The position numbers were made by a program, and so were the translations under genes. The notes under the pieces were generated by a model. That model saw only the letters and a list, made by a program, of their open reading frames with translations, ran no database searches and was not told the origin of the DNA. 20,712 nt of DNA, from the IMG/VR virus record IMGVR_UViG_3300042320_001813, positions 1-20,712 of that record. One strand, written 5' to 3'. Shown one piece after another: positions 1 through 12,620 of this stretch (its first letter is position 1; the number at the start of each line of letters is the position of its first letter). Source of the stretch: a virus.

Positions 1-666
1 AATACAAATTATTCAATACAGGTAGGCAGTGGAGGTACTGGCAGCACAAGCAATAATGGAACACAAGGTGGAAGTAGTATTTTTGATTCCATAACTTCAA
101 CTGGTGGCGGAACTGGTGGTGGACCACAAACGGCTGGCGGTAATGGTGGTTCATCTGCTGGCGGTGGCACAGGTGCTAATGCTGGCACAAGAACTGCCAG
201 CCCTGTTCAAGGAAATAATGGTGCGAATGGTGGCACTCACCCATCAGGTCTTACTGGTGGTGGTGGTGGTGCGGGTGCAGCAGCAACAAACGCAAATGGC
301 GGTGCAGGTCAGGCTGTAAGCATTACTGGCACAAGTGTTACTTACGCTGGTGGCGGTGGCGGTGGTAACTCACAAAATCAAAGCAATGAAGGCACAGGTT
401 CAAACGGTGGCGGTAATGGTGGAAGAAGTGCAAATGGTTCAGCAGGCACAGCCAATACTGGCGGTGGCGGCGGTGGCGGTGGCAATAATACTTTTGTTGG
501 CTATAACGGTGGCAACGGTGGTAGTGGCGTAGTCATTTTGCGTTACGCAGATACTTATACAATCACTATCGGCGCAGGTTTAACAGGCACAGAGTCGGCT
601 GCTTCGGGTGGCTACAAACGGGCTACGATTACTGCTGGCTCGGGTAATGTGAGTTGGGCTTTGTAA
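1..666 (+). CDS. G1: glycine-rich tail adhesin, 5' end outside window (partial)
   Basis: The frame is open from base 1 to a TAA at 664-666, giving 221 residues of the C-terminal part. It is a low-complexity Gly/Ser/Thr/Asn protein with runs of GGGGG separated by short loops, then GSGVVILRY and a beta segment ending GGYKRATITAGSGNVSWA. This is the phage glycine-rich domain found in tail-fibre tip proteins. Such adhesins (for example S16 gp38, a T4-like phage) pack poly-glycine II helices and carry receptor specificity in their loops. Gly-run followed by a C-terminal beta tail makes it subtype A, like the genes at 9004 and 11317. The stop overlaps the next start (TAATG), so translation is probably coupled. 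The family is secure; binding to a host receptor is inferred. Confidence 0.8.
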   Translation, partial: NTNYSIQVGSGGTGSTSNNGTQGGSSIFDSITSTGGGTGGGPQTAGGNGGSSAGGGTGANAGTRTASPVQGNNGANGGTHPSGLTGGGGGAGAAATNANGGAGQAVSITGTSVTYAGGGGGGNSQNQSNEGTGSNGGGNGGRSANGSAGTANTGGGGGGGGNNTFVGYNGGNGGSGVVILRYADTYTITIGAGLTGTESAASGGYKRATITAGSGNVSWAL

Positions 667-941
667 TGGCACATTACGCATTTATTGGATACGGAAACAA
701 AGTTGTCAAAGTTATTGTCGGCGTTGATGAAACAGTTACACAACTAGACGGTGATGTTGAAGTCGGCGGTTCTTCAGAAGCGTGGGAACAGTTCTATCAA
801 AACCAACCACAGCATCAAGGTTTGTTGTGCAAACGCACTTCATACAACGGGAACATTCGTGGCAGATACGCAGGTATCGGATACACCTATGACGCTGACC
901 TTGACGAGTTCATCGCACCTGTTATCGAGAGTGAGGTTTAA
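666..941 (+). CDS. S1: short adhesin-partner protein (MAHYA family)
   Basis: A 91-residue protein starting MAHYAFIGYGN. The ATG at 666 is preferred over an upstream in-frame TTG at 654 because it overlaps the stop of G1 and matches the MAH starts of its paralogues. Seven related short genes follow the seven glycine-rich genes here. The shared core is a VIV-x-V strand, then (R)TSYNGNIRGRYAGIGYTYD and F-x-x-P. Similar small proteins are common beside tail-fibre genes in aquatic phages, without an established function. A fibre-assembly chaperone or tip-capping role is possible but inferred. It ends in the short -APVIESEV form and lacks the SWxLD...PPTP tail seen in S2, S4 and S7. Its last codons hold a GAGG ribosome binding site for the next gene. 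Confidence 0.75.
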   Translation: MAHYAFIGYGNKVVKVIVGVDETVTQLDGDVEVGGSSEAWEQFYQNQPQHQGLLCKRTSYNGNIRGRYAGIGYTYDADLDEFIAPVIESEV

Positions 942-946
942 CTATG
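902..946 (+). repeat. 45-nt exact junction repeat, copy 1 (end of S1 into next gene)
   Basis: Identical to 10175-10219 (end of S5 into G6). It spans the last codons of the partner gene, the stop and the next ATG, including the GAGG ribosome binding site. The inner 20 nt (921-940) also occur at 11293-11312. Confidence 0.85.
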
Positions 947-1390
947 GCTTATACTTCTAGCCAAATTGTTCAAGCAGTTCCGAGCAACAATGTAACTGCT
1001 TATGTTGCCTACACGCCTTCTTACACAAACATAACTCTTGGTAATGGCACAAACAATTTTCGTTATGCACAGATTGGTTTTTTGGTTCATGTTTACGGTC
1101 AATTAACTTTCGGAAGCACAACAACTATGGGAAGCGGTCCTAAAATAAGTTTGCCAGTTACAGCAAAATTAGGAAACAATTTTTACACAAACAACATAAG
1201 TTATGTTGATACAAGCACAACCGACCAATATCTTGGCGCAGGATATTTAGATTCAACTACAACAGTTCTATTTAAGTTGCCACAAGTAACGGGAAATTTT
1301 TTGTTTCACGCCAATGTCGGTGCTACTCAACCGTTTACATTTGCAACAACCGATATCATTAACTTTAATTTTGTTTATGAGGCTGCATAA
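944..1390 (+). CDS. Beta-rich tail/fibre protein
   Basis: 148 residues, rich in Thr, Asn, Tyr and Val, with no signal peptide or membrane segment. The stretch YTPSYTNITLGNGTNNFRY-AQIGFLVHVYGQLTFGS followed by ISLPVTA resembles a beta-sandwich module found at the ends of minor tail proteins and tail fibres of actinobacteriophages, in which a YTP...LGNG-T-RY-QIG-VHV pattern recurs. It probably contributes a host-contact or virion-surface domain. The start is 2 nt after S1, with GAGG inside the S1 3' end as ribosome binding site. Its stop overlaps the next ATG by one base (TAATG). It interrupts the array of adhesin/partner pairs together with the next gene. Module recognition is moderately sure; the exact role is inferred. 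Confidence 0.6.
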   Translation: MAYTSSQIVQAVPSNNVTAYVAYTPSYTNITLGNGTNNFRYAQIGFLVHVYGQLTFGSTTTMGSGPKISLPVTAKLGNNFYTNNISYVDTSTTDQYLGAGYLDSTTTVLFKLPQVTGNFLFHANVGATQPFTFATTDIINFNFVYEAA

Positions 1391-1638
1391 TGAACTACCT
1401 AGATTTTGTTGCACCACACGAAAACGCAAACGAAATACCTAACGAATGGTATTTTGAACGGTTTAGAAACTGGCGTAACCGTGAACTACAAGCATCGGAC
1501 TGGACACAGATAGCAGATTGCACAGCCGACAAAACAGCGTGGCAAGAATACCGTGAAGAACTACGAGACTTGCCATCACAAAACGCTGACCCTAAGTTGA
1601 TTGTTTTTCCGACTCGCCCACAAGCGTTACTGGGCTAG
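1390..1638 (+). CDS. Tail assembly chaperone-like small protein (Phage_tail_APC type)
   Basis: 82 residues. The central pattern W-RNREL-ASDWTQIADC----AWQEYREELRDLPSQ, followed by a P-rich FPTRP end, fits the family usually named phage tail assembly chaperone (PF16778), found in many tail-fibre clusters, where R-x-x-L-x-x-SDWTQ and YR-x-x-LRDLP are the hallmarks. It is short, charged and probably cytoplasmic during assembly. The ATG overlaps the upstream stop (TAATG), and GAGG in the upstream codons 7 nt before the ATG can serve as ribosome binding site. It probably works with the fibre protein at 944-1390, with which it is coupled. The family name is not direct evidence of chaperone activity. 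Confidence 0.7.
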   Translation: MNYLDFVAPHENANEIPNEWYFERFRNWRNRELQASDWTQIADCTADKTAWQEYREELRDLPSQNADPKLIVFPTRPQALLG

Positions 1639-1641
1639 ACG

Positions 1642-2532
1642 ATGACTAATTCACGCAGACCGCTTGGATATGTTTCGGCTTACCCTGTAGTTGTGCAAAC
1701 TGTAAGTGCTGTCCCTGTTGTTGTTGATTATCTTGTTGTCGCTGGCGGTGGTGGTGGGGGAAACTGCAACAACGCAACTTTTAACGGTGGCGGTGGTGGT
1801 GCTGGTGGCGTAAGAAGCACTGTTGCGGTAAGCGGTGATGCTACGACTTTAGAAACAGCGTTCACACCAGTTAGCGGAACTGTTTACACAGCGACGGTTG
1901 GTGCTGGTGGTGCGTCAAACACATCTGGCACAGATAGTTCTGTTGCTGGCACGGCTTTGACAACTATTACTTCAACTGGTGGTGGTCGTGGTGGTGGCAC
2001 TAATGCGTCTGCTACTGGTGGGAGTGGTGGTGGTGGTTATAATTTGAATACGAATGGCTCAGCAGGCACAGCCAATCAAGGTCGTGCGGGTGGTTCTACG
2101 ACTGGCGGTTTCGGCGGTGGCGGTGGCGGTGCAAGTAATACTGGTGGAAATACATTTGGGTCGGGCACTAATGCAGGTGGTGTTGGCGTAGTGAATGTGA
2201 TATCAGGTTCAAGTGTTTACTACGGTGGCGGTGGTGGTGGTAATTCTCCTTCTGGGGCTGTTGCTTCTGGCGGAAATGGTGGTGGCGGTAACGGTGGAAA
2301 TGCAAGCACACTTCCGCAGGCTGGCACAGCAAACACGGGTGGCGGTGGCGGTGGTCGTAATGACGGTCAAGGCGCAGGTGCAGGTGGTGCTGGCGGTTCA
2401 GGAATCGTTATTATGCGAACTCTTGACACATTCGCAGACCCAACCACATTGACAGTTGGCACACAAACAACCACGGGCGGATACAAAATATTTACGTTTC
2501 TTGCAACTGGCACGATTGCGTGGACTTTCTGA
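1642..2532 (+). CDS. G2: glycine-rich tail adhesin, subtype A
   Basis: 296 residues. The N-terminus carries the tag shared by all complete adhesins here (R5-R-P-L-GYVSA13), then a hydrophobic strand VVVDYLVVAGGGGGG around residues 26-38. A Gly-rich body of about 210 residues follows, then GSGIVIMR and a C-terminal beta segment GGYKIFTFLATGTIAW. This strand-plus-Gly-run pattern is the phage glycine-rich tip domain. The C-terminal end differs more from G1, G5 and G7 than they do from one another, and its partner S2 is also the most divergent. No clear Shine-Dalgarno sequence precedes the ATG, which lies 3 nt after the upstream stop, so it may depend on translational coupling. Receptor binding is inferred. 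Confidence 0.8.
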   Translation: MTNSRRPLGYVSAYPVVVQTVSAVPVVVDYLVVAGGGGGGNCNNATFNGGGGGAGGVRSTVAVSGDATTLETAFTPVSGTVYTATVGAGGASNTSGTDSSVAGTALTTITSTGGGRGGGTNASATGGSGGGGYNLNTNGSAGTANQGRAGGSTTGGFGGGGGGASNTGGNTFGSGTNAGGVGVVNVISGSSVYYGGGGGGNSPSGAVASGGNGGGGNGGNASTLPQAGTANTGGGGGGRNDGQGAGAGGAGGSGIVIMRTLDTFADPTTLTVGTQTTTGGYKIFTFLATGTIAWTF

Positions 2533-2867
2533 TGGCACACTTCGCAGAATTAGATAACAACAATAATGTGCTACGAGTAATCGTGGTCGCTAACGAATAT
2601 GAATCAAACGGTGTTGAGTGGTGCAACGATTTATTCGGTGGCACTTGGGTTCAGACAAGTTTTAATAACAGGATTCGCAAACAATTCTGTGGCGTTGGGT
2701 TCAAATATCTGCCTGACGCTGATGTGTTCGTAGCACCACAACCGTTCCCTTCGTGGACTCTTGACAGCAACCACGATTGGCAACCACCGACACCAATGCC
2801 ATCAGATGCTTCAACAGAAAACCCGTATGAGTGGAACGAAGAAGAACAAGAGTGGGTCACACATTAA
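2532..2867 (+). CDS. S2: short adhesin-partner protein, long-tailed form
   Basis: 111 residues starting MAHFAELDNNNNVLRVIVV. The ATG at 2532 shares its A with the TGA of G2; an upstream in-frame TTG at 2520 is rejected for this reason. The core W-VQTSFNNRIRKQFCGVGFKY matches the other partners (WVQTSYN..R..YAGIGY). It then carries the long tail F-APQPFPSWTLD---DWQPPTPMPSD----YEWNEEEQEWV, shared with S4 and S7 but absent from S1, S3, S5 and S6. Bases 2707-2800 are 78/94 identical to 12421-12514 in S7. It ends a transcription unit, being followed by a promoter-bearing gap. Function is unknown; a fibre chaperone or tip component is one possibility. Confidence 0.75.
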   Translation: MAHFAELDNNNNVLRVIVVANEYESNGVEWCNDLFGGTWVQTSFNNRIRKQFCGVGFKYLPDADVFVAPQPFPSWTLDSNHDWQPPTPMPSDASTENPYEWNEEEQEWVTH

Positions 2868-2894
2868 CTAGGTGGCTTATACCGCTACCAGCAA
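2864..2894 (+). repeat. 31-nt intergenic element, copy 1
   Basis: This block starts at the stop of S2 and matches 12590-12620, just after S7, at 29 of 31 positions. A diverged third copy lies at 4956-4978 (AACTAGGT then ACCGCT, with 2 extra bases between). In this copy GGTGGC (2871-2876) can pair with GCTACC (2884-2889) around a 7-nt loop with one G-U pair. Copy 2 has a mismatch there, so a hairpin is not clearly conserved. It always sits at the head of a gap that precedes a new plus-strand unit. Confidence 0.75.
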
Positions 2895-2966
2895 CAAAAT
2901 TATTGCACCGGCTAAAGCGTAGTAAAATACACTGTAGTGTCGCAGTAGCGGCAGAAAGAGCACGAT
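2895..2966 (+). promoter_or_regulatory. Putative promoter region for the tailspike gene
   Basis: A -10-like TAAAAT is at 2923-2928. No good -35 is seen at 17 nt; TTGCAC at 2903-2908 is only 14 nt away. A 12-bp imperfect palindrome, ACACT-GT-AGTGT (2929-2940), sits immediately downstream and could be an operator. AGAAAGAG (2953-2960) precedes the ATG at 2967. The gap is 99 nt long, unlike the 2-3 nt gaps inside the array, which supports a new transcription start here. Confidence 0.4.
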
Positions 2967-4922
2967 ATGCCAGCAATTGATTTTCCAAATTCTCCATCTC
3001 TCAACCAAGTATACACTGCCGGCTCCCGCACGTGGACTTGGAATGGTTCTGCCTGGGAGGTAAATCCTTCAGCTGCAAATGTAGAAGCAGGCTCACTTGC
3101 TTCTTACGCACCGCTAAGCTCGCCTACTTTTACTGGCAACGTTGTATTACCAAGCACAACGACTATCGGTGACGTGTCATCAACCGAGCTCGGCTACGTG
3201 AACAGTGTCACCTCGGCAATTCAAACTCAAATCAATGCAAAAGTCAATAAGACCTCTCTGCCAGTTTCTGTGTCAGATTATGGCGCAGTTGGCGATGGCG
3301 TTACAGATGACACTGCCGCTTTTGATGCCGCGGCACAAGCACGAACTGGCGCTGTCACCTACACTGACAATGGAATCCTGAGAGCAAATTGTGTATTTGT
3401 AACAATTCCAGATGGCAACTATGTGCTTTCTAGTCGAATAGATACTGGCGGTCGAGAAGTTGTTTGGGTTGCAGACCGTGGCGCAAAAATCCTTAATCCA
3501 GAAAATCTTAACGGTGACCTTCTTCGTGAGGGCCAAAGAATCATGTCGGCGCCTTACGGCAACGAAGATAGCGCGACTGGTTTTGCGGTAAGACTTTATC
3601 CAAGTGGCTCGGACTTTAATAGCGCCGCCGAAGTTTTGGGTGTAACCAACGAGGCGGATATCTCTATCTACACTGACAGAGACGCAGTTTCTTTCTTTGC
3701 CGATGTTTTAGCTCCACCTCCAACGCTGACTTTAGCTGGCGCAACCTATACAGCAACAACTGTTGTCCCTGCTTCAACAATCAGCGAGGCGAATAGAAGA
3801 CTTTTGCGCAAAGGCATGATTATTGATACTGCTCACAGCCCAACAAAGTACAGCGGATTTATCACTGATTGGGCAGCAAATGGTTCAAGCATCACGGTTG
3901 AAGGTTGGTATCTCGCCAACGGTACAGCACAATCTGCCTCAACTCCATCGGGAACAGCAACTGCCTATGTAAATCCGTTCACAAAAGTATGGGCGCATAA
4001 CGCAAATGTTTTGATGGACGCGAATTCACATGCTTCAGCAATGACTGGTTTTGAACTTGGACTTGTAGACAACAAAGAAGCATCAACCGCTGCAACTGGT
4101 GGTTCACACTATGCATGGGGTTTTGATGCCGTAAATCTTGGAACGTACAAAGTCCAAAGTTTCTTTGTTGCTCGTGGTTCTGGTTTTGTAGGACTACGAG
4201 TTGATAATGCCGATACTGGTTTATACTACACAGGTGGAACAAATGTTTTTGATTCTTATATTTCCAATGAGCGCTCCGCTCTTTTGCGTGCTGATGGCAC
4301 ACTGGAACTTGGAAAGCAAAACACTGCAGCAACCTGGTACATGGATATTCATACCTCTGGCAACAACGAATCGGTCAATGACTATGATGCAAGAATACAA
4401 GTCACCGGCGGTTCTGAAACTGATGGAAGCGCGACTGTAACTTTTTTTGCAACAAACACAGATACTCAGGTCTTACGACCTCGCACTGATTCAACATACT
4501 CACTTGGTGGAGCGGCTCGTAGGTGGACGGTAGTTTACGCCGACACTGCAACAATTAGCACATCGGATGAAAGAGAGAAAGAGCAGATCGGCGACATCAA
4601 CGAGGCAGTTCTGCGCGCTTGGAGTAACGTCGAGTATCAACAGTTCAAGTTTAAAGACGCTGTTCAGAAAAAAGGAGACGGCGCGAGGTGGCATGTTGGG
4701 TTGGTGGCGCAACGAGTTAAAGAAGCATTTGAGGCTGAAGGCGTTGATCCGTTTGCCTACGGCATCCTGTGCTACGACGAATGGGAAGAGCAGGAAGAGC
4801 GCTTTGAGGACGGAATTGGCATGGTGCAAGAACACCAGGCTGCCGGAAATAGATACGGAATTCGGTACGAAGAAGCCCTTGCTCTAGAGTGCGCGTATTT
4901 ACGCAGTAGACTACCGCAATAA
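2967..4922 (+). CDS. Tailspike with pectate-lyase-like region and C-terminal S74 intramolecular chaperone
   Basis: 651 residues. Residues 1-32 (PAIDFPNSPSLNQVY...TWTWNGSAWEV) form a short N-terminal module also found in the next gene, probably for virion attachment. A fibre linker follows with the phage motif SSTELGYVNSVTSAIQTQINAK. Then comes VSDYGAVGDGVTDDTAAF, typical of the first turns of a pectate-lyase/parallel beta-helix tailspike. The C-terminus is a peptidase S74 chaperone: RWTVVYADT-ISTSDEREKEQI has the S-x4-K dyad at S533/K538, followed by WHVGLVAQRVKEAFEAEG and a helical end. In characterised members, including endosialidase and other S74 fibres, this domain trimerises the spike and then cuts itself off at the Ser. 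Removal of about 119 residues is therefore predicted. Enzymatic depolymerase activity is possible but no catalytic residues could be assigned. Confidence 0.88.
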   Translation: MPAIDFPNSPSLNQVYTAGSRTWTWNGSAWEVNPSAANVEAGSLASYAPLSSPTFTGNVVLPSTTTIGDVSSTELGYVNSVTSAIQTQINAKVNKTSLPVSVSDYGAVGDGVTDDTAAFDAAAQARTGAVTYTDNGILRANCVFVTIPDGNYVLSSRIDTGGREVVWVADRGAKILNPENLNGDLLREGQRIMSAPYGNEDSATGFAVRLYPSGSDFNSAAEVLGVTNEADISIYTDRDAVSFFADVLAPPPTLTLAGATYTATTVVPASTISEANRRLLRKGMIIDTAHSPTKYSGFITDWAANGSSITVEGWYLANGTAQSASTPSGTATAYVNPFTKVWAHNANVLMDANSHASAMTGFELGLVDNKEASTAATGGSHYAWGFDAVNLGTYKVQSFFVARGSGFVGLRVDNADTGLYYTGGTNVFDSYISNERSALLRADGTLELGKQNTAATWYMDIHTSGNNESVNDYDARIQVTGGSETDGSATVTFFATNTDTQVLRPRTDSTYSLGGAARRWTVVYADTATISTSDEREKEQIGDINEAVLRAWSNVEYQQFKFKDAVQKKGDGARWHVGLVAQRVKEAFEAEGVDPFAYGILCYDEWEEQEERFEDGIGMVQEHQAAGNRYGIRYEEALALECAYLRSRLPQ

Positions 4923-5035
4923 CCGCTAGATTTGTTGTAATTTTCAACAAAAAGCAACTAGGTCGCGTAATCACCGCTGTATACTCGTGTTAATATACAT
5001 AGGGTATAGTGCGTATCGAAAGATAGGATGATACA
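4923..5035 (+). promoter_or_regulatory. Intergenic gap with diverged shared element and candidate promoter
   Basis: This 113-nt gap holds a weak hairpin, TTTGTTG (4931-4937) with CAACAAA (4945-4951), without a T-run. It also holds AACTAGGT (4956-4963) plus ACCGCT (4973-4978), the third variant of the element at 2864 and 12590. Several -10-like boxes follow: TATACT at 4980-4985, TAATAT at 4991-4996 and TATAGT at 5005-5010. No convincing -35 is seen. AGGA (5025-5028) precedes the GTG at 5036 by 7 nt. A separate transcript start for the 5036-12575 unit is likely; the exact -10 cannot be chosen. Confidence 0.4.
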
Positions 5036-5428
5036 GTGGCAGCAATTGATTTTCCAAACTCACCGTTAACAAATGATCTTTTCACGTCTAGTGGCAAGAC
5101 TTGGTTTTACAACGGCACCGCATGGACGCTTATGGGCGTATCCGCCCTGTCTCCGGGCGTGCCAGACGATGGGTCAGTCACGGCGGTTAAATTAGCAAGC
5201 GACGCTGTCACAACTGTTAAGATTCTTGATTTAAACGTTACAACTGCAAAGATTGCTGACGACGCGGTTACAGCAGACAAGCTTGCTAACACAGCAGTTA
5301 CGCCAGGCTCATACACGACGACCAACATCACTGTTGACGCACAAGGTAGAGTTACTGCAGCATCATCAGGAACTGGCTTCGACGCGTTCGATGATCAAGT
5401 TTTCATCGCAACGCAAATATGGTCTTAA
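5036..5428 (+). CDS. Short tail-fibre protein sharing the tailspike N-terminus
   Basis: 130 residues from a GTG start with AGGA 7 nt upstream. Residues 1-33 (AAIDFPNSPLTNDLFTSSGKTWFYNGTAWTL) match the N-terminal module of the 2967-4922 tailspike. The rest is a repeat of the D-x-AVT-x-x-K(L/I) type (DGSVTAVKLASDAVTTVKI...TTAKIADDAVTADKLANTAV), then TNITVDAQGRVTAASSG. These are classic phage fibre shaft repeats. It is much shorter than usual fibres and ends FDDQVFIATQIWS without a tip domain. It may be a short baseplate-proximal fibre or a truncated fibre whose tip was lost. Trimerisation and virion attachment are inferred from the repeat type and shared N-terminus. Confidence 0.75.
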   Translation: MAAIDFPNSPLTNDLFTSSGKTWFYNGTAWTLMGVSALSPGVPDDGSVTAVKLASDAVTTVKILDLNVTTAKIADDAVTADKLANTAVTPGSYTTTNITVDAQGRVTAASSGTGFDAFDDQVFIATQIWS

Positions 5429-5446
5429 CAAAATAGGAGATAGATA

Positions 5447-5818
5447 ATGGCAACACTAAGCAAATTATGTCTACAGCCAGCCGGCACTACGGGCACAGGG
5501 TTAGCGATAAAAGTTGCTGCTACTGCCACAGCTGGTACGGCAATTCACACAGCATCGGCTACTGCAACGACGATCGATGAGATCTGGTTGTACGCCGTGA
5601 ATACCTCTGCTTCGTCGGTTAAATTGACGATTGAGTGGGGTCAGGCTGATGCGCCTGATGGCAACATTGAGGTCACAGTACAGCCAGAGGCTGGACTTGT
5701 AACTATCATTCCAGGACTGTTGTTGCAGGGCAACGCTTCAGCAAAGGTTGTTCGTGCATTCGCCGCTACTGCAAACGTCATCACGATTCACGGATTCGTC
5801 AACAGAATTACGGCGTAA
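5447..5818 (+). CDS. Small beta-sandwich phage protein of unknown role
   Basis: 123 residues with a strong ribosome binding site (AGGAG at 5435-5439, 7 nt before the ATG). The sequence alternates hydrophobic and Thr/Ala residues, with DEIWLYAVNTSASSVKLTIEWG, GLVTIIPGLLLQGNASAKVVRAFA and ANVITIHGFVNRIT. This suggests an all-beta, virion-associated domain with no transmembrane segment or signal peptide. Relatives occur next to tail-fibre genes in many aquatic phage contigs and are normally called hypothetical. A decoration or tail protein is plausible given its place between fibre genes. The gene is 18 nt after the short fibre and 3 nt before G3, so it belongs to the same unit. Confidence 0.65.
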   Translation: MATLSKLCLQPAGTTGTGLAIKVAATATAGTAIHTASATATTIDEIWLYAVNTSASSVKLTIEWGQADAPDGNIEVTVQPEAGLVTIIPGLLLQGNASAKVVRAFAATANVITIHGFVNRITA

Positions 5819-5821
5819 CCT

Positions 5822-6706
5822 ATGGGTCGCAGGACATTTGGATATGTCAGCGCAGAGCCAACAACAAGTGCCGTCTATGTAAACGGCACTCAAACGGGTT
5901 ACGGTGTTGCGACAGGCGGAACTTCGTCAAGTATTACTGTGTCAGCACAGGCATACACGCTTCTAACTTTTACAAGCACAGGAACTTTGACGGTTACTAC
6001 CGCAGGTTTGTTTGACGTTTTAGTTGCTGGCGGTGGCGGTGGTGCTGGTGGTAGTGGTGGTGGTGTTGCTGGTGGCGGTGGCGGTGCTGGACAACTTGTA
6101 GGTCTTTTTACAACATCAACACTTTATCTAGACGCAAATCAAACAATTACAATCGGTGCTGGTGGTGCTGGTGGTGTGGGTCAAAATTTTGGAACAGCAG
6201 GAAGTTTCACCGCAGTCGGCACAAAACTTGTTGCTTCTGGTGGTGGTTTTGGACACTCTAACGACAACGCCGCTGGTCCAGGTGGTTCTGGTGGTGGTGG
6301 TGGTGGTCGTGGTGGTGCTGGTGGTATTGCTAATTTTGCAAATTTAGGTAATGATGGCGGCATTGGTTCTCGTGATGGAGACTTAAGGGCTGGCGGTGGC
6401 GGTGGCGGTTATTCAGCCGCAGGTGGCACCTCAGGTACCACTACTGGCGGTACTGGTGGTAATGGCGGTGATGTCAGTGCATTTATTTCAGGCAGTGCAA
6501 CTTACAAATCAACTGGCGGTGGCGGCGGTGGCACTAGTTCTGGCGGTGCTGGTGGTAACTCATCGGCAAATTCAAACGCTGGCAAAACATCAGGCACAGG
6601 TAATTCTGCTTCAGCAAATAGCGGTAGTGGTGGCGGCAGCACAGTCAACGGTTCAAATGGCGGTGCAGGCGGTAGCGGTATTGTTTATGTAAGGTTCAAG
6701 GTTTAG
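5822..6706 (+). CDS. G3: glycine-rich tail adhesin, subtype B
   Basis: 294 residues. The N-terminal tag G7-YVSAEP is followed by a beta module, GYGVATGGTSSSITV...YTLLTFTSTGTLTV---GLFDVLVAGGGGG (about residues 22-72). A long Gly-rich body then runs to a short end, GSGIVYVRFKV. In subtype B the beta hairpin (FTSTGTLTV) precedes the Gly body, the usual order for the phage glycine-rich domain; subtype A has its equivalent at the C-terminus. An in-frame (GGT)6 tract lies at 6290-6307. No clear Shine-Dalgarno sequence is seen, and the ATG is 3 nt after the upstream stop. The tip/receptor-binding role is inferred from the family. Confidence 0.8.
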   Translation: MGRRTFGYVSAEPTTSAVYVNGTQTGYGVATGGTSSSITVSAQAYTLLTFTSTGTLTVTTAGLFDVLVAGGGGGAGGSGGGVAGGGGGAGQLVGLFTTSTLYLDANQTITIGAGGAGGVGQNFGTAGSFTAVGTKLVASGGGFGHSNDNAAGPGGSGGGGGGRGGAGGIANFANLGNDGGIGSRDGDLRAGGGGGGYSAAGGTSGTTTGGTGGNGGDVSAFISGSATYKSTGGGGGGTSSGGAGGNSSANSNAGKTSGTGNSASANSGSGGGSTVNGSNGGAGGSGIVYVRFKV

Positions 6707-6708
6707 TT

Positions 6709-6960
6709 ATGGCACATTTTGCAAAAATAGAAAACGGTTTAGTGCAACAAGTAATCGTTGTCAGCAACAATGATGCACCAACCGAAGCAGACGGTCAAGC
6801 GTTCATCGCATCTATCGGTTTTGACGGTGTGTGGGTTCAGACTTCTTACAACAACAATCCGATTGAAGGTGCTTCTCGTGGCAAATATGCTGGCATCGGT
6901 GATACTTGGAATGGCACAGAGTTTGTTGCGCCACCAAGTCCAGTTATTGAAGGAGCTTAA
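6709..6960 (+). CDS. S3: short adhesin-partner protein
   Basis: 83 residues starting MAHFAKIENGLVQQVIVVSN. It has the core VWVQTSYNNN-IEGASRGKYAGIGDTW and the short end FVAPPSPVIEGA. MAHFAKI-N--V-QVIVVSN is the form of this family most often seen in cyanophage and other marine phage tail clusters. It follows G3 with a 2-nt gap and precedes G4 with a 2-nt gap. The AAGGAG within its final codons (IEGA) is the ribosome binding site for G4. It lacks the aromatic/proline tail of S2, S4 and S7. The biochemical role is unknown. Confidence 0.72.
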   Translation: MAHFAKIENGLVQQVIVVSNNDAPTEADGQAFIASIGFDGVWVQTSYNNNPIEGASRGKYAGIGDTWNGTEFVAPPSPVIEGA

Positions 6961-6962
6961 CT

Positions 6963-8663
6963 ATGCCGAATCGGCGTGAACTCGGATATGTAAGTAGCGG
7001 TAATACCCCGACTATTGTTGGGCAAGTAGGCGCTTACGGTGTAGGTTCGGGCGGCACATCGTCAAGTATTACTGCTGGTGGTTCTAACTATAATCTTTAT
7101 ACTTTTACTTCTGACGGCAACTTTGTTGTAACCTCTGATGGTTTATTTGATGTCCTTATGTTTGGTGGCGGTGCTGGCGGTTCTAGTGGTCGTATTGGCA
7201 CAGATAGCGGTGGCGGTGGTGGCGCAGGTGGCGTTATTGAAAGCACAATTTATTTAACTGCTGGAACTTACGCAGTTGATGTTGGTGCTGGTGGCGCAAG
7301 TAATACGGAAGGTTTAGGTTCAAACATTAACTCAACTGGTCGCAGTTTTGGTATTGGCGGTGGCGGAACTGGCGTTAATTATGGGGCTGTCACAAACAAA
7401 AGCGGTGCGTGTGGCGGTGGTGGTAGTGGCACAGGTTCGGCTCCAGAAATTGTCGGAGGTGCTGCAACTAATGCAGGTGTAAATGGTTTTGCAGGCGGTA
7501 ACGGCGTGCAAAGTAATGGCTCTGGCGCTGGCGGTGGCGGTGGCGTAACAGCCGTTGGTGCAAACGCAAGCGGTGGAAACGGCGGAAACGGCGGTGCTGG
7601 TTATGATGTCAGTGCATTTATTGGTGGAAGCGCATTATTTAAGGGTGGCGGTGGCGGCGGTGGCACTCGTAGCGGTTCGGCTGGTGCTGGTGGTAGTTCA
7701 GTTGGTGGTGCAGGCGGAGTAACTGCGGTAGGTTCATCGGCAGCAGCAAACACGGGTTCAGGTGGTGGAGGCGGTGGCGGTGCAACGGGCGGCACAGGCG
7801 GTTCAGGCATTGTTTATATTCGTAGCAAGACGAGTGCTGTAGCAACTTTGAGTGGTTATGGTGTTGCTTCGGGCGGCAGTAGTTCAACGATTACTGTTGG
7901 TAATCAGAGTTACACGCTGTTGTCGTTTACGAGCGACAGCAATCTTGTTGTTTCTACTGGTGGATTGTTTGATGTCTGTTTAATCGGCGGCGGCGGTGCA
8001 GGTGGTGGCAGTTACACGGATTCTGTGCCTGGCGGCGGTGGAGGTGGTGGCGGTGTTTTAGGTATTACCAGCACGACCACAATCTATTTGCCTGCTGCAA
8101 CTTACACGCTTGATGTTGGTGCTGGCGGTGCTGGAACAACCGCAACCGCAACGGGTGGCATCGGTTTAAAGTCATCTATCGGTTCACAGATTTCTGTTGC
8201 TGGCGGTGGCGGTGGTGGTTGTTATGACGGTCAGTTAAACGCATATCCAACGGGTGCATCTGGTGGTGGTGTTATTGACGCTGCCTTAAGTGGCACAGGT
8301 TCAGTTTCTTGCGACAGTAATGTTGGGAACAATGGTGGTGGCGCAACTACAAGTAATGGTGCTGGAGGTGGTGGCGGTGCTGGTGGAACTGGCGGTGGTT
8401 CAACTTCTGGGACTGGTGGAACTGGCGGTAACGGCATAGACATAAGCGGTTTTATTACTGGCGCAACCTATTATGCGGGTGCAGGTGGAGGCGGTGGCGG
8501 TGCAAGTGTTGGTGGGGCAGCAGGTAACGGCGGTGTTGCAGGTAAAACAACTGGCGCAGGAAACAACGGCTCAAATTACGGTGCAGCAGGTGGCGGAACA
8601 GTTAGCGCATTACAATCGGGCAACGGTGCTGCTGGCGCAGTTTTTGTCAGGTTCAAAATCTAA
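6963..8663 (+). CDS. G4: double-length glycine-rich adhesin, two tandem subtype-B units
   Basis: 566 residues, about twice the length of its neighbours. Unit 1 starts with the tag MPNRRELGYVSS, a beta module (YGVGSGGTSSSIT...YNLYTFTSDGNFVV...LFDVLMFGGG), a Gly body and GSGIVYIRSK. Unit 2 begins at about residue 297 with SGYGVASGGSSSTITV...YTLLSFTSDSNLVV...LFDVCLIGGGG, a second Gly body, and ends GAVFVRFKI. Unit 2 lacks the N-terminal GYVS tag, so this looks like an in-frame fusion or duplication in which one start region was lost. AAGGAG 7 nt before the ATG, inside S3, is a good ribosome binding site. Reading through both units is uninterrupted, which argues against a frameshift artefact. Confidence 0.82.
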   Translation: MPNRRELGYVSSGNTPTIVGQVGAYGVGSGGTSSSITAGGSNYNLYTFTSDGNFVVTSDGLFDVLMFGGGAGGSSGRIGTDSGGGGGAGGVIESTIYLTAGTYAVDVGAGGASNTEGLGSNINSTGRSFGIGGGGTGVNYGAVTNKSGACGGGGSGTGSAPEIVGGAATNAGVNGFAGGNGVQSNGSGAGGGGGVTAVGANASGGNGGNGGAGYDVSAFIGGSALFKGGGGGGGTRSGSAGAGGSSVGGAGGVTAVGSSAAANTGSGGGGGGGATGGTGGSGIVYIRSKTSAVATLSGYGVASGGSSSTITVGNQSYTLLSFTSDSNLVVSTGGLFDVCLIGGGGAGGGSYTDSVPGGGGGGGGVLGITSTTTIYLPAATYTLDVGAGGAGTTATATGGIGLKSSIGSQISVAGGGGGGCYDGQLNAYPTGASGGGVIDAALSGTGSVSCDSNVGNNGGGATTSNGAGGGGGAGGTGGGSTSGTGGTGGNGIDISGFITGATYYAGAGGGGGGASVGGAAGNGGVAGKTTGAGNNGSNYGAAGGGTVSALQSGNGAAGAVFVRFKI

Positions 8664-8685
8664 ATAAAGCAAACAGGAGTAAATA

Positions 8686-9000
8686 ATGTCAGCACAATAC
8701 TTTGCACAAATTGATGAAAACAATGTTGTAACCCATGTCGCTGTGGTGCAACGAGATTTTCTTGAAGCGAACCCTGAACGATACACAGGCACTTGGGTTG
8801 AAACATTTTTTGATACGGCAGGTAAACAATACGCCGGTGTTGGTTACGAGTATTTACCTGATGCACAAGATTTTAGACCGCAACAACCGTATCCGTCTTG
8901 GACTTGGGCAAATAAAGTTTGGAATCCACCAACACCTATGCCAACAGACGACAAAATGTATTCTTGGAACGAATCAGAACTTGAATGGGTTGAGGTTTAG
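8686..9000 (+). CDS. S4: short adhesin-partner protein, long-tailed form
   Basis: 104 residues starting MSAQYFAQIDENNVVTHVAVV. It has its own ribosome binding site (AGGAG, 8675-8679) in a 22-nt gap after G4, unlike most partners. The middle, FLEANPERYTGTWVETFFDTAGKQYAGVGYEY, is nearly the same as in S6, whose adhesin is also subtype B. The C-terminal tail LPDA-DF---QPYPSWTW---VWNPPTPMPTD--MYSWNESELEWVEV is the long form shared with S2 and S7. The end codons contain GAGG that serves G5. Function is unknown; the matching of partner subtype to adhesin subtype suggests it acts specifically on the preceding adhesin. Confidence 0.75.
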   Translation: MSAQYFAQIDENNVVTHVAVVQRDFLEANPERYTGTWVETFFDTAGKQYAGVGYEYLPDAQDFRPQQPYPSWTWANKVWNPPTPMPTDDKMYSWNESELEWVEV

Positions 9001-9036
9001 TTTATGGCTGCAAGGTTGATGGGTTATGTTTCGGCT
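8991..9036 (+). repeat. 46-nt exact junction repeat, copy 1 (S4 end into G5)
   Basis: Identical to 11304-11349 (S6 end into G7). It covers the final partner codons with GAGG, the stop, a 3-nt gap and the first 11 codons of the subtype A adhesin (MAARLMGYVSA). Confidence 0.85.
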
Positions 9037-9936
9037 TCAAACACACCGACAGTAATTTTGGCGAATGTTACTGGTGTCCCAACTTCTTTAACCGTTGATT
9101 ACTTAGTTCTTGGTGGCGGAGGTGGAGGTGGCGGTGAACTTGCTACAGGCTTTTGCGCTGGTGGTGGCGGTGCTGGTGGTATGCGTTGCACAGTAACCGC
9201 AACTGGTGGCGGTGGTTCTCTGCCTTCAGCATTATCGCTTTCTACTTACACAAATTATGCAGTAGCCGTTGGGGCAGGTGGCGCTGGTGGTGTTACTCGT
9301 GCAAGTGGAACATCTGGTTCAGCAAGTTCATTTAGCACGGTTTCAGTATCTGGCGGTGGCGGAGGTGGAAGTCCAGATGGAGCAGGTTTAAACGGTGGTT
9401 GTGGTGGTGGAGGTGGTGGTGCTTTTAGCGCAACTTTAAAATCTGGTGGTACTGGAACAAGTAACGAAGGTTACGCAGGTGGAACAAATAGTTCAATAAA
9501 CTCTGCTGGTGGTGGCGGTGGCACAAGTGCTGTCGGCACTAATAGCGTAAGTACTGGTTCGTCTGGTAATGGTGGAAACGGTACGGCTTCAAGCATTACT
9601 GGAACCTCCGTAACATACGGAGGAGGCGGTGGAGGAGGCGGAGGAAACTGGTCTAGCAACGGTATGGGCGGAACTGGTGGTGGCGGTAGCACAAGCAAAT
9701 ATGGTGATGCTGGTCGTGGTGCTGCAAATCTTGGTGGTGGCGGTGGCGGCTGTTCTGGCGGCGCTATTGACGGTAACGGTGGTCAAGGTGGAAGCGGTGT
9801 AGTTATTCTTCGCTACTCAGACGCTTATAGTATTCTTTTTGGTGCTGGTGTAGCAGGCGCAGAATCGGCTGCATCGGGCGGATATAAGCGAGCAACCATT
9901 TATACTGGTTCTGGAAATGTTAGTTGGTATCAATAA
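9004..9936 (+). CDS. G5: glycine-rich tail adhesin, subtype A
   Basis: 310 residues with N-terminal tag MAARLMGYVSASNTPT, then strand SLTVDYLVLGGGGGGG. Next is a block GGMRCTVTATGGGGSL...TNYAVAVGAGGAGG (about residues 56-96), more Gly modules, ITGTSVTYGGGGGGG, GSGVVILRYSD and the C-terminal beta segment GGYKRATIYTGSGNVSW. This is the subtype A layout. Its first 36 coding bases and the 3' end of the preceding partner form a 46-nt block repeated exactly at the S6/G7 junction. The stop overlaps the S5 start (TAATG). Compared with G7 the MRCTVTATGGGG block sits near the N-terminus instead of near the C-terminus. Receptor binding is inferred from the family. Confidence 0.8.
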   Translation: MAARLMGYVSASNTPTVILANVTGVPTSLTVDYLVLGGGGGGGGELATGFCAGGGGAGGMRCTVTATGGGGSLPSALSLSTYTNYAVAVGAGGAGGVTRASGTSGSASSFSTVSVSGGGGGGSPDGAGLNGGCGGGGGGAFSATLKSGGTGTSNEGYAGGTNSSINSAGGGGGTSAVGTNSVSTGSSGNGGNGTASSITGTSVTYGGGGGGGGGNWSSNGMGGTGGGGSTSKYGDAGRGAANLGGGGGGCSGGAIDGNGGQGGSGVVILRYSDAYSILFGAGVAGAESAASGGYKRATIYTGSGNVSWYQ

Positions 9937-10214
9937 TGGCTCATTACGCATTTCTTGATGGAAACAATGTCGTTGTCAAAGTAATTGTTGGCATTGACGA
10001 AACACAAACACAAGTTGATACTGACGGCAAAGTTGTTGGCGGTTCAACAGAAGCGTGGGAAAAGTTTTATGAATCGCAAGCAATACATCTAGGTTTAACC
10101 TGCAAACGCACCTCATACAACGGGAACATTCGTGGCAGATACGCAGGTATCGGTTACACCTATGACGCTGTTGCTGACGAGTTCATCGCACCTGTTATCG
10201 AGAGTGAGGTTTAA
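9936..10214 (+). CDS. S5: short adhesin-partner protein (MAHYA family)
   Basis: 92 residues, MAHYAFLDGNNVVVKVIVGIDETQTQ. It is very close to S1 along its whole length, including SSEAWE/STEAWE-FY, CKRTSYNGNIRGRYAGIGYTYDA and the end DEFIAPVIESEV. The last 45 nt of the S5 junction (10175-10219) are identical to 902-946. The ATG at 9936 overlaps the G5 stop, so an upstream TTG at 9924 is not used as the start here. The partner of another subtype A adhesin (S7) has the same N-terminal half. The ESEV codons carry GAGG for G6. Function is unknown. Confidence 0.76.
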   Translation: MAHYAFLDGNNVVVKVIVGIDETQTQVDTDGKVVGGSTEAWEKFYESQAIHLGLTCKRTSYNGNIRGRYAGIGYTYDAVADEFIAPVIESEV

Positions 10215-10219
10215 CTATG
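10175..10219 (+). repeat. 45-nt exact junction repeat, copy 2 (end of S5 into G6)
   Basis: Second copy of 902-946. The sequences diverge immediately after the ATG, which fits a recombination boundary at the gene junction. Confidence 0.85.
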
Positions 10220-11092
10220 CCGAACAGGCGTGAACTCGGATATGTGAGTGCTGGAAGCACAAGCACTATTGTTGCTACTACAGGTTATGGTGTGGCGACT
10301 GGTGGCACTTCAAGTTCTATAACTGTTTCTTCACAGAACTGTACGCTTCTAACTTTTACGAGCGACAGCAATCTTGTTGTTACTACAGCAGGTTTGTTTG
10401 ACGTTTTGCTTGTCGGTGGTGGCGGTGGCGGTCACGCTGGTTCGAGTTTATATGGCGGCGGCGGTGCGGGTGGCGGTGCTGTAGTTGGCATAAATTCTGC
10501 AACCACAATTTATTTGACTGCCGCTACTTATGCCGTTGATGTTGGTGCTGGTGGTGCTGGTGCTGGTGGCGCAAATAGCGCAACAACAGGGTTAGGTAGT
10601 TCTGTTGGAAGTGTAATTGCTTGTGCTGGTGGCGGTTCAACAGGTGCAGTTGCACAAGCAGGCCAAAAAGATAGTGCAGGCGGTTCAGGAGCAGGCGGTT
10701 CAGCAGGTGCTACAGGTGCAGTTAGTTTGGAATTAGCAAACGGCAACAACGGCGGCAACGGCGGAAGCACAGCAGAATTTACGGGTGGCGGTGGCGGTGG
10801 TGCAGGTGGCGTTGGCGGCAATGGCGGCGCAACTAATGGGGGCACAGGCGGAAACGGTATTGACATTTCACCGTTTATAACTGGTGCAACATATTATGCG
10901 GGTGCAGGCGGTGGCGGTGGCGGTAAAACAACTGGTGGCACGGCTGGAAATGGTGGCGTTGCAGGTAAAACTACAGGCAACGGCAACGCAGGCGTAAATT
11001 ATGGTGCTGGTGGTGGGTCGTGTGCAAATAGTTCAGGTAGCACAGGTGGCGCAGGTGCGGCTGGGGTTGTTTATGTCAGGTTTAAAGTATGA
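10217..11092 (+). CDS. G6: glycine-rich tail adhesin, subtype B
   Basis: 291 residues. The tag MPNRRELGYVSAGSTST is identical to G4 over its first eleven residues. A beta module follows (GYGVATGGTSSSITVSSQNCTLL..., then FTSDSNLVVTTAGLFDVLLVGGGG), then the Gly body. Gly modules include GNGIDISPFITGATYYAGAGGGGGG, shared with unit 2 of G4 (GNGIDISGFITGATYYAGAGGG). The end is AAGVVYVRFKV. The start is 2 nt after S5 with GAGG inside the S5 3' end. The stop overlaps the S6 start by 4 nt (ATGA), a coupled arrangement. The G4/G6 similarity suggests a duplication or gene conversion between these two adhesins. Confidence 0.8.
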   Translation: MPNRRELGYVSAGSTSTIVATTGYGVATGGTSSSITVSSQNCTLLTFTSDSNLVVTTAGLFDVLLVGGGGGGHAGSSLYGGGGAGGGAVVGINSATTIYLTAATYAVDVGAGGAGAGGANSATTGLGSSVGSVIACAGGGSTGAVAQAGQKDSAGGSGAGGSAGATGAVSLELANGNNGGNGGSTAEFTGGGGGGAGGVGGNGGATNGGTGGNGIDISPFITGATYYAGAGGGGGGKTTGGTAGNGGVAGKTTGNGNAGVNYGAGGGSCANSSGSTGGAGAAGVVYVRFKV

Positions 11093-11313
11093 AAACTTTT
11101 TTTGCTCAACTTAACGATGACAATGTTGTTATCGATGTTCATTGTGTTACACAAGAGTTTTTGGAAGCGAACCCTGACCGCTATCAGGGCACTTGGGTTG
11201 AAACTTTTTTTGATACAGCAGGCAAAACTTATGCTGGTATCGGCTGGACATATGATGAGGCGACACAAGATTTTGTTGCACCACCAAGTCCTGTTATCGA
11301 GAGTGAGGTTTAG
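11089..11313 (+). CDS. S6: short adhesin-partner protein, short-tailed form
   Basis: 74 residues, the shortest partner: MKTFFAQLNDDNVVIDVHCV-QEFLEANPDRYQGTWVETFF, DTAGKTYAGIGWTYDEATQDFVAPPSPVIESEV. The centre matches S4 closely, while the end matches S3 (APPSPVIE) and S1/S5 (VIESEV). This makes it a mosaic of other partners. The 4-nt ATGA overlap with G6 implies translational coupling. The 20-nt stretch at 11293-11312 is identical to the ends of S1 and S5 and holds GAGG that serves G7. Function is unknown. Confidence 0.75.
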   Translation: MKTFFAQLNDDNVVIDVHCVTQEFLEANPDRYQGTWVETFFDTAGKTYAGIGWTYDEATQDFVAPPSPVIESEV

Positions 11314-11349
11314 TTTATGGCTGCAAGGTTGATGGGTTATGTTTCGGCT
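11304..11349 (+). repeat. 46-nt exact junction repeat, copy 2 (S6 end into G7)
   Basis: Second copy of 8991-9036. Direct repeats flanking S4/G5 and S6/G7 could delete or duplicate the intervening 2.3 kb by homologous recombination. Confidence 0.85.
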
Positions 11350-12210
11350 AGCAACACACCGACAATCGTAAGTGCTGTTGGTGGCATAACTGTTGATTAT
11401 CTTGTTATCGGCGGTGGCGGTTCAGGCGGAGCATTTGATATTCCTCTTGATGGTTATTTTACTGGAAATAACGGAAATGCAAGCATATTCTCAACCATTG
11501 TTTCTCGTGGCGGTGGTGGTGGCGGTAAATATCAAAATGGAAACGGTTTAGCAGGCGGTTCTGGTGGTGGTGCTGGTGGTGGCACAACTGGTGTTGGCGG
11601 AACTGGTGAAAGTGGTCAAGGTTTTGCAGGTGGCGTAAATACTACTGGAACTAACGGCGGTGGTGGTGGTGGCGGTGCTGGTGCGGTTGGTGGTGTCGGT
11701 GCAAACGGTGCTGGTGGTGCTGGTGTAGCAAACGACATTACTGGAACATCTGTTACTCGTGCTGGTGGCGGTGGTGGTGGCGCAAGCGGAGCAGGTGGTT
11801 CGGGCGGTGGCGGTGCTGCTGCTTCGGGTGGCACGAATGCAGGTGCTGGCACAGTCAATACAGGTAGTGGTGGTGGTGCTTCACTCGTATCAGGAACTGC
11901 TGGTCACGGTGGCGGTGGTGCTGGTGGGTTTCGTTCAACAGTTACAGCAACAGGCGGTGGCGGTAGTTTAGAAACCCCACTTGATATTTCGCCTTCAACC
12001 AATGTTGTTGTTTCGGTTGGTGCGGGTGGTGCAAAAATAGATACAACAGGTGACTCTGGTGCAGGCGGTAGTGGTGTAGTGATACTTCGCTATTCAGATT
12101 CAAGAACGATTACTTTCGGAACAGGTTTAACTGGCACGGAAAGCGCAGCAAGCGGTGGATACAAACGGGCAACAATTACGGCTGGCACGGGATATGTGAG
12201 TTGGGCATAA
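11317..12210 (+). CDS. G7: glycine-rich tail adhesin, subtype A with rearranged modules
   Basis: 297 residues. Tag MAARLMGYVSASNTPT as in G5, then ITVDYLVIGGGGSGG. The Gly body begins with IFSTIVSRGGGGGG and QGFAGGVN, then ITGTSVTRAGGGGGG, and only near the end (residues about 201-239) the block GGFRSTVTATGGGGSL...TNVVVSVGAGGA. In G5 that block comes directly after the first strand. GSGVVILRYSD and the beta segment GGYKRATITAGTGYVSWA close the protein. The stop overlaps the S7 start (TAATG). The moved block is best explained by module shuffling in a poly-glycine fold. Family assignment is firm; function is inferred. Confidence 0.8.
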   Translation: MAARLMGYVSASNTPTIVSAVGGITVDYLVIGGGGSGGAFDIPLDGYFTGNNGNASIFSTIVSRGGGGGGKYQNGNGLAGGSGGGAGGGTTGVGGTGESGQGFAGGVNTTGTNGGGGGGGAGAVGGVGANGAGGAGVANDITGTSVTRAGGGGGGASGAGGSGGGGAAASGGTNAGAGTVNTGSGGGASLVSGTAGHGGGGAGGFRSTVTATGGGGSLETPLDISPSTNVVVSVGAGGAKIDTTGDSGAGGSGVVILRYSDSRTITFGTGLTGTESAASGGYKRATITAGTGYVSWA

Positions 12211-12575
12211 TGGCACATTACGCATATTTAGATAGCAACAATGTTGTGGTCAAAGTTTTGACAGGCGTTGATGAAACAGTTACACAAAACGGTGTTGGCG
12301 GTTCTTCGGAGGCGTGGGAACAGTTTTATGAAAGCCTAGAATGGAACGCAGGTCTGACCTGTAAACGAACTTCATACAACGGCAACATTCGCAAACGATA
12401 CGCAGGCATTGGCTTTATTTATCTGCCTGATGCTGATGTGTTCGTCTTACCACAACCATACGGTTCGTGGACTCTAGATGCCAACTACGATTGGCAACCA
12501 CCAACACCGAAGCCTGATGGCAACTATAGATGGTTTGAACCAAACCAAGTGTGGATAGAAATTGTTGAGTCGTAG
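12210..12575 (+). CDS. S7: short adhesin-partner protein, chimera of two partner types
   Basis: 121 residues. The N-terminal half (MAHYAYLDSNNVVVKVLTGVDETVTQ, SSEAWEQFY, CKRTSYNGNIRKRYAGIGF) belongs with S1 and S5. The C-terminal half (YLPDADVFVLPQPYGSWTLDANYDW, QPPTPKPDGNYRW) belongs with S2. The ATG at 12210 overlaps the G7 stop; the upstream in-frame TTG at 12201 is not preferred. Both S2 and S7 are followed by the same 31-nt intergenic element, so the shared segment may run from inside the gene into the gap. It closes the adhesin array. Function is unknown. Confidence 0.76.
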   Translation: MAHYAYLDSNNVVVKVLTGVDETVTQNGVGGSSEAWEQFYESLEWNAGLTCKRTSYNGNIRKRYAGIGFIYLPDADVFVLPQPYGSWTLDANYDWQPPTPKPDGNYRWFEPNQVWIEIVES

Positions 12576-12589
12576 ATGTGGGTCGCAAT

Positions 12590-12620
12590 TTAACTAGGTG
12601 ACTGATACCGCTACCAGCAA
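12590..12620 (+). repeat. 31-nt intergenic element, copy 2
   Basis: It matches 2864-2894 at 29 of 31 positions, the two differences being at 12601 and 12604. It begins 15 nt after the S7 stop, whereas copy 1 overlaps the S2 stop. It lies upstream of a clear TATAAT and a new gene. It could be a regulator or RNA polymerase factor site, a processing or termination signal, or a recombination remnant. Confidence 0.75.

Follow-up and report, generated by a model that had tools for sequence, protein, structure and literature searches.

Why should one phage carry seven glycine-rich proteins of the tail-tip type in a single run of genes, each followed by a small protein of one and the same family? The question is raised by IMGVR_UViG_3300042320_001813, a single IMG/VR record of 20,712 bases, analysed over its whole length and hereafter called the window. 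Seven such pairs, or cassettes, lie between positions 1 and 12575, in an array that continues beyond the left end of the window. The answer favoured here, with a probability of roughly 0.7, is that the glycine-rich proteins (G1 to G7) are tips and that the small proteins (the partners, P1 to P7) are their dedicated helpers.

The region would then serve a tailed phage, whose host is probably actinobacterial, as a modular array for host recognition. Within it, each glycine-rich protein would be a tail-tip receptor-binding protein made of a conserved N-terminal docking peptide (GYVSA motif) and a variable body, the latter a lattice of beta-strands and polyglycine with variable non-glycine segments. 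The gene at the end of each fibre gene would encode a small dedicated assembly chaperone that uses its N-terminal domain to contact the C-terminus of the corresponding fibre and probably does not stay in the virion. Recombination at conserved stretches (the docking segment, the junction of the two genes and the YAGIG segment of the partner) would add, remove and re-assort cassettes, so that phages of one population carry different sets.

An array of seven cassettes

All genes of the array lie on the + strand. The seven glycine-rich open reading frames (ORFs) have glycine contents of 29.7-34.0%, and six of their products match the Pfam family PF21722 (Gly_rich_2) above the cut-off, with expectation values (E) of 1e-14 to 3e-23. 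G1 (1-666; E 1.3e-14) is cut at its 5′ end by the window; G2 (1642-2532; E 3e-23), G3 (5822-6706; E 3.4e-17), G5 (9004-9936) and G6 (10217-11092; E 4.4e-17) are complete, and G4 (6963-8663; E 4.5e-18) is a double-domain protein of 566 amino acids with two PF21722 stretches. G7 (11317-12210) has no Pfam match and is recognized by phrog_2295 (E 3.4e-21), which also matches G2, G5 and G6.

All seven partners match phrog_7759, a family of unknown function, with E values from 7e-7 to 7e-35: P1 (666-941; E 1e-20), P2 (2532-2867; E 6.6e-35), P3 (6709-6960; E 4e-15), P4 (8686-9000; E 2e-15), P5 (9936-10214; E 9.7e-22), P6 (11089-11313; E 7e-7) and P7 (12210-12575; E 1.8e-33). P4 and P6 also match phrog_14370 (E 2e-16 and 3e-18), and both P2, with its Trp/Pro residues, and P4 end in a long tail. 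Stop and start codons overlap at five of the seven junctions (TAATG in pairs 1, 5 and 7, TGATG in pair 2, ATGA in pair 6); gaps of 2 and 22 nucleotides separate the genes of pairs 3 and 4. The original prediction had described seven glycine-rich genes, one of double length, each followed by a member of one small family and mostly joined by stop/start overlaps, and this description is confirmed. Its designation of the entire span 1-12575 as a cassette array is accurate for the seven pairs but too broad for 944-5818, where other fibre genes are also found.

Association and co-variation of tip and partner

The association of the two genes extends well beyond the window. In a first sample of loci, most of them retrieved by way of the partner, to which phage records were added, 115 partners had enough upstream sequence; 84 of them directly follow a glycine-rich ORF and 27 more have one within 3 kb. 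Four have none by the threshold applied, among them that of CRP-207, which follows a protein with a glycine-rich C-terminus. Since a glycine-rich gene comes first in 9.7% of same-strand gene pairs at the same loci, the direct pairing of 84 partners is not due to chance. A second sample was fetched through the unrelated phrog_30535 gene, because the first had been chosen by the partner, and here 75 of 78 partners stand directly behind a glycine-rich ORF. Overlap of the two genes is likewise frequent (86 of 142 adjacent pairs versus 307 of 1303 background pairs at the same loci). The outcome named as contrary to the original prediction, partners equally common away from glycine-rich genes, was thus not observed. 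Among isolated phages, the pairing occurs in phiPsal1, Bellamy, HTVC033P, HTVC008M, Melnitz (two pairs) and CRP-207; in DSL-LC04, S-TIM4 and S-MS29 the glycine-rich gene and the partner are separated by other genes.

Two kinds of intervening gene were observed at such positions (other records are cited by locus handles). In many marine phages a gene for a 2-oxoglutarate-Fe(II) (2OG-Fe(II)) oxygenase (PF13759), often together with a gene for 84-86 amino acids, separates tip and partner (L056 9393-10001, L060 9398-10000 and similar marine loci; L108 3397-4017), and its product may modify the tip. A sulfotransferase-like gene (PF13469) is inserted between them in L014 (3534-4238) and L008 (729-1424).

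The sequences of the two proteins also vary together. For 70 distinct pairs, pairwise distances were compared by Spearman correlation and Mantel test, the fibre C-terminus being defined as the last 40 residues. The N-terminal part of the partner follows the C-terminus of the fibre (rho 0.576, Mantel p 0.001) and not its N-terminus (rho 0.019, not significant), while the C-terminal tail of the partner is unrelated to the fibre C-terminus once the partner N-terminus is controlled for (0.011). The two halves of the partner, which are equally adjacent, correlate less (0.272), so that adjacency of the DNA alone is a poor explanation. The same relationship is visible in discrete classes: a partner of the CKRTSYN class accompanies 28 of the 30 fibres ending in 'GAGLT...TAGSGxVSW' and is found with none of the 12 that end at the glycine core. 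The proposal that each partner is dedicated to its tip is therefore supported both by the pairing and by the co-variation.

Predicted fold of the glycine-rich proteins

In an alignment of 43 sequences built for G5, the 11 invariant columns are the start methionine and ten glycines. Outside the Gly-Gly columns, the paralogues of the window are 19-45% identical, the second domain of G4 being left out. The AlphaFold2 model of G5 obtained from this alignment is of high confidence (predicted local distance difference test, pLDDT, 92.0; predicted template modelling score, pTM, 0.88). Residues 1-26 are loose, without helix (pLDDT ~54-80), and the remainder consists of a few strands and long glycine segments.

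Foldseek searches of the PDB with this model retrieved the tail tip of mycobacteriophage Bxb1 (9d93; E 1.1e-4, probability 1.00) and the fibre of cyanophage Pam3 (7ypx_A; E 6.7e-4, probability 1.00, template modelling (TM) scores 0.34/0.42), matches that support the predicted role of the glycine-rich proteins as receptor-binding tips. Bxb1 is, moreover, a tailed phage of an actinobacterium, and its polyglycine domains are located at the tail tip. It differs from the window in that no gene of the partner family occurs among gp22-gp29, where the glycine-rich profile has no significant sequence match either. The likeness to Pam3 goes further, since there too a glycine-rich receptor-binding domain is linked to a beta-sandwich and a small dedicated chaperone is encoded alongside; the gp24-type combination of beta-sandwich and glycine-rich lattice is seen in the single-chain model of G5. 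In contrast, Pam3 has a single pair, and the N-terminal helical trimerization bundle of gp24 was not found in the G5 model, which has the loose 26-residue peptide instead.

The reference chosen by the original prediction, gp38 of Salmonella phage S16, proved less apt than Pam3 gp24 and the Bxb1 tail tip, which are the closer known proteins. According to the literature it does carry polyglycine-rich motifs with variable loops at the fibre tip (compared in PMC9608196), but it is a separate tip protein mounted on the fibre gp37, whereas here the pair begins with the glycine-rich gene. It was rejected as a direct relative, as it is not among the G5 fold matches listed; 6F45 is absent from the 50 listed.

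An N-terminal peptide of the glycine-rich proteins, MAARLMGYVSASNTPT or MPNRRELGYVSAG, recurs near letter-for-letter on different bodies and in different phages, and is best read as a docking peptide through which the tips would attach to the virion.

Probable role of the partner

No Pfam family was found for the seven partners above the cut-off (P1 alone has an irrelevant sub-threshold match), which led to the rejection of a known Pfam tail-fibre assembly chaperone as a candidate, and a profile search against all PDB sequences gave no match. The AlphaFold2 model of P7, based on 71 relatives, has a pLDDT of 92.8, a single helix of at least four residues (33-42) and a strand-poor Trp/Pro tail. 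Its top PDB match, weak enough to serve as a lead only, is the tail-fibre chaperone of Mu (5yvq_B; E 0.5, probability 0.63, TM 0.3), and the significant matches among predicted structures are uncharacterized phage proteins. The tails of the partners, either long (YPSW...W) or short (...IESEV), are swapped between N-terminal classes.

The closest system of comparison is that of Pam3, in which gp24 is a glycine-rich receptor-binding fibre and gp25 its chaperone. The N-terminal beta-sandwich of gp25 holds the TNF-like and glycine-rich domains of the fibre; folding depends on gp25, which virions do not contain (PMC9608196). As in gp25, it would be the N-terminal domain of the partner that meets the distal part of the fibre, and the partner genes occupy the position typical of Tfa and gp25, directly downstream of the fibre gene. 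The assembly proteins of Mu and T4 (Tfa, T4 gp38) are similarly small and similarly placed, Mu Tfa being a weak structural match of the partner; unlike them, the partner has no match to a Pfam tail-fibre assembly family, and unlike gp25 it has neither a helical trimerization domain nor a sequence match to any PDB chain. By analogy with gp25, the 'chaperone or cap' of the original prediction leans to chaperone, and the helper is probably released once its work is done.

That the partner instead stays on the tip as a cap or accessory of the virion and takes part in binding is a doubtful alternative. Both Mu Tfa and S16 gp38 are reported to stay attached to their fibres (PMC7289586), the Mu protein is also the top structural match of the partner in the PDB, and the C-terminal tail of the partner varies and recombines. 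However, Pam3, the closest glycine-rich system, releases its chaperone, the bound form of which hides the receptor loops (PMC9608196), and it is the N-terminal domain of the partner, not the tail, that tracks the fibre.

Several observations weigh against tips with dedicated helpers. The docking motif, in its GYVS-type form, is present in only about one-third of the glycine-rich ORFs of the fetched loci (57 of 183). The TM scores of the G5 fold matches are modest (0.34-0.45), the match of the partner to a solved chaperone is weak, and the C-terminal helical trimerization domain of Pam3 gp25 was not found in the P7 model. The insertion of other genes between tip and partner at marine loci is a further point of this kind. 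Linkage can contribute to the co-variation, as adjacent DNA is being compared, and within the window alone, where n=7 leaves little power, the correlation does not reach significance (rho 0.36, exact p 0.09).

Exchange of cassettes

The segments that the window has in common with other phages point to its modular construction. Tiles of 60 nucleotides shared at >=88% with several other phages fall mostly in the docking segment, at the junction of glycine-rich gene and partner and in the partner's YAGIG region; further shared tiles come from the phrog_30535 gene and from where the array ends, and little is shared in the glycine-rich bodies.

Exchange is seen directly in near-identical relatives. 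Over 11.4 kb the sister contig L107 matches the window at 99.97% identity; upstream of the end of P1 the two are unrelated. L107 lacks the G1-P1 cassette, in place of which it has a phrog_30535 gene and then, going upstream, another pair and a further partner. The switch sits at the stop codon, no long exact repeat marks the variant junction, and the form present in the window is supported by a further record, L119, which starts at window position 213. Similarly, L093 and L094 are 99.8% identical, with one fibre-gene segment replaced (L093 4690-5362). The expectation that related contigs vary in cassette content is thus borne out.

Traces of past rearrangement remain inside the window. In many relatives an intact gene for an exported protein of ~500 amino acids lies directly behind the last partner (L010 1189-2733, L188 13324-15030). 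After both P2 and P7, only about its first 14 codons are left: at 2852-2894, with a core of 31 nucleotides identical to L081, and at 12578-12620, directly 3′ of P7, with a stop in codon 8. The presence of two such scars hints at a past fusion of two array ends. The 31-nucleotide sequence, which recurs behind P2 and P7, was also considered as a promoter or recombination site, and rejected as such since it is the 5′ coding end of this gene in relatives; it gave no signal of RNA structure (z 0.65). Slippage at tandem repeats was likewise rejected, as the tandem repeats found were a single short GGT run and one repeat of 2.4 copies. The exported protein itself, with a weak PA14 domain, a Thr-rich linker and a C-terminal hydrophobic stretch followed by RR, is by its sequence a candidate phage-encoded surface or secreted protein.

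The switchable recognition that the original prediction had considered finds, in the sense of programmed switching, no support in the window. No invertible repeats surround the cassettes (one chance-like inverted pair was found), the array has neither an excess of internal promoters or terminators nor structured RNA above chance, and no invertase or reverse transcriptase was found among the window genes searched.

Number and possible display of the tips

The array exceeds the usual size. Whole-record searches of 44 IMG/VR entries gave one partner in 33, two in ten and none in one, in agreement with the predicted usual dose of one or two. The largest other arrays observed are those of L130, with four pairs, and L055, with four partners, against seven pairs in the window and eight partners in L107; all these counts are lower bounds, since the records are fragments. 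A different expansion was observed in L128 (171 kb) and L180 (97 kb), which have eight and six glycine-rich ORFs and two partners each, the glycine-rich genes having multiplied without the partners.

How so many tips would be used is a separate matter. They may, tentatively, all be displayed together on one small tail, at least seven of them, or be assorted among particles, in either case through the shared docking peptide. If joint display is true, the partners would be private chaperones keyed to the C-terminus of their own tip, so that new specificities plug in as cassettes of two genes without cross-interference, and with such a plug-in recognition array a single phage could keep pace with the microdiversity of the abundant actinobacteria of freshwater.

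Alternatively, most cassettes could be a reserve for recombination, one or a few tips being made or mounted and the others serving as donors for exchange. This is rather unlikely, even though the conserved exchange points at module borders, the scars and the presence or absence of cassettes within a population are what such a reserve would show, and no evidence speaks for the mounting of all seven. The pairs that lie fully inside the window are nevertheless open, intact, on one strand and mostly joined by translational overlaps, with no promoters or terminators above chance between them.

An improbable explanation is that the glycine-rich proteins are not alternative specificities at all, being structural or lipid-interacting parts of one composite, heteromeric tail tip. 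The best structural match of G5 is indeed a tail tip, that of Bxb1, in which the central fibre is decorated with polyglycine domains that have been proposed to contact lipids (PMC13252515), and the conservation of the docking peptide hints at one site of attachment for all tips. Parts of one composite structure are, however, difficult to reconcile with a copy number of 0 to 8 among relatives, with the absence of a cassette from a phage that is 99.97% identical, or with paralogues as divergent as those of the window. Finally, an assembly artefact, by which repeats were collapsed or cassettes of several phages chained, is highly improbable: contigs do break inside G1 (the start of the window and that of L119) and metagenome assembly is error-prone in paralogues, but three further IMG/VR records are 99.97-100% identical to the window in the stretches that were compared, the paralogues are too divergent to be confused, and the variant junction offers no long exact repeat.

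Tips with dedicated helpers, displayed in such numbers, would resemble known systems in part. The multi-spike phages (Ackermannviridae; Klebsiella phages phiKp24 and K64-1) also have several receptor-binding proteins that recombine at conserved ends (PMC11414711); these are tailspikes on large branched complexes, in contrast to small polyglycine tips each with a helper. The cultivated Nanopelagicales phages E7 and F5 are freshwater actinophages whose second variable island, a host-recognition island, encodes a tail fibre and collagen-like proteins; the parts of their description consulted mention a tail fibre, two collagen-like proteins and DUF2541 proteins, and report no glycine-rich/partner cassettes (PMC10202952). 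Multi-receptor phages, glycine-rich tips and fibre-specific chaperones are thus each known singly. Their combination, with at least seven small glycine-rich tips, individual helpers and cassette turnover in a probable actinophage of freshwater, was not found in the literature searched, nor were glycine-rich fibres in pelagiphages; the dose, the modularity and the setting are new here.

The phages of abundant freshwater bacteria have hardly been cultured. If the proposed reading is true, phrog_7759, which is widespread in cyanophages, pelagiphages, methylophages and actinophages, would be a family of tip-specific assembly helpers, and each cassette, as a unit of two genes, could be expressed to search for receptors. 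In metagenomes, the array also offers a marker of host-range evolution that can be counted.

Other genes of the array

Between the first and the third pair are several genes that are not part of the cassettes. Directly after P1, a fibre-tip-like accessory protein (944-1390; phrog_13144, E 3e-6), with a C-terminal match to large phage proteins, is followed by a tail-fibre assembly chaperone of the classical family (1390-1638; PF16778 Phage_tail_APC, E 1.8e-16). Beyond the first scar, 2967-4922 encodes a tailspike with a pectate-lyase-like fold (PF12708, E 6.7e-8) and an S74 self-cleaving chaperone (PF13884, E 2.7e-15). The short fibre protein at 5036-5428, with the N-terminus IDFPNSP and matches to tail-fibre PHROGs, is the first gene of a recurring module and has the same position in L093.

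The next gene, that of the phrog_30535 protein ('S'; 5447-5818, E 4.3e-60), recurs directly 5′ of a glycine-rich ORF in 59 of 84 cases. The family has 572 pattern hits in IMG/VR and one weak match in named phage records, and is likely to be a virion adaptor of uncultured phages.

Genomic setting and probable host

On the 3′ side of the cassettes, the same strand of the window carries a glycosyltransferase and a methyltransferase gene; further on, the opposite strand carries genes for WhiB, a pyrimidine-dimer glycosylase, a cytosine methylase and a dUTPase. The presence of WhiB, described as a key indicator of actinophages (PMC10202952), makes an actinobacterial host probable. The gene at 19162-20187 has relatives limited, in the phage collection searched, to Gordonia phages and one Actinomycetia phage. 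A freshwater source is suggested by relatives that carry WhiB and by what has been published on them, rather than by a sample record.

The beginning of the array, which the window lacks, is provided by L093 (73 kb), where the order glycosyltransferase-methyltransferase-WhiB is the same. Directly 5′ of its modules, which are ordered short fibre, phrog_30535, glycine-rich gene and partner, are genes for a tape-measure-like protein of 793 amino acids and a minor-tail-like protein of 415 amino acids, and because these adjoin the cassettes the latter belong to the tail-tip region. Four relatives with the same glycosyltransferase (L090, L091, L096 and L099) have no cassette at that place. In phiPsal1, whose actinobacterial host is of the Microbacteriaceae, the gene order is tape measure, fibre, glycine-rich gene and partner. 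The glycine-rich ORF of this Pontimonas phage (MG835450; L109 3105-4001) encodes 298 amino acids directly 5′ of the partner and is unannotated, the deposited record giving small hypothetical genes in its place.

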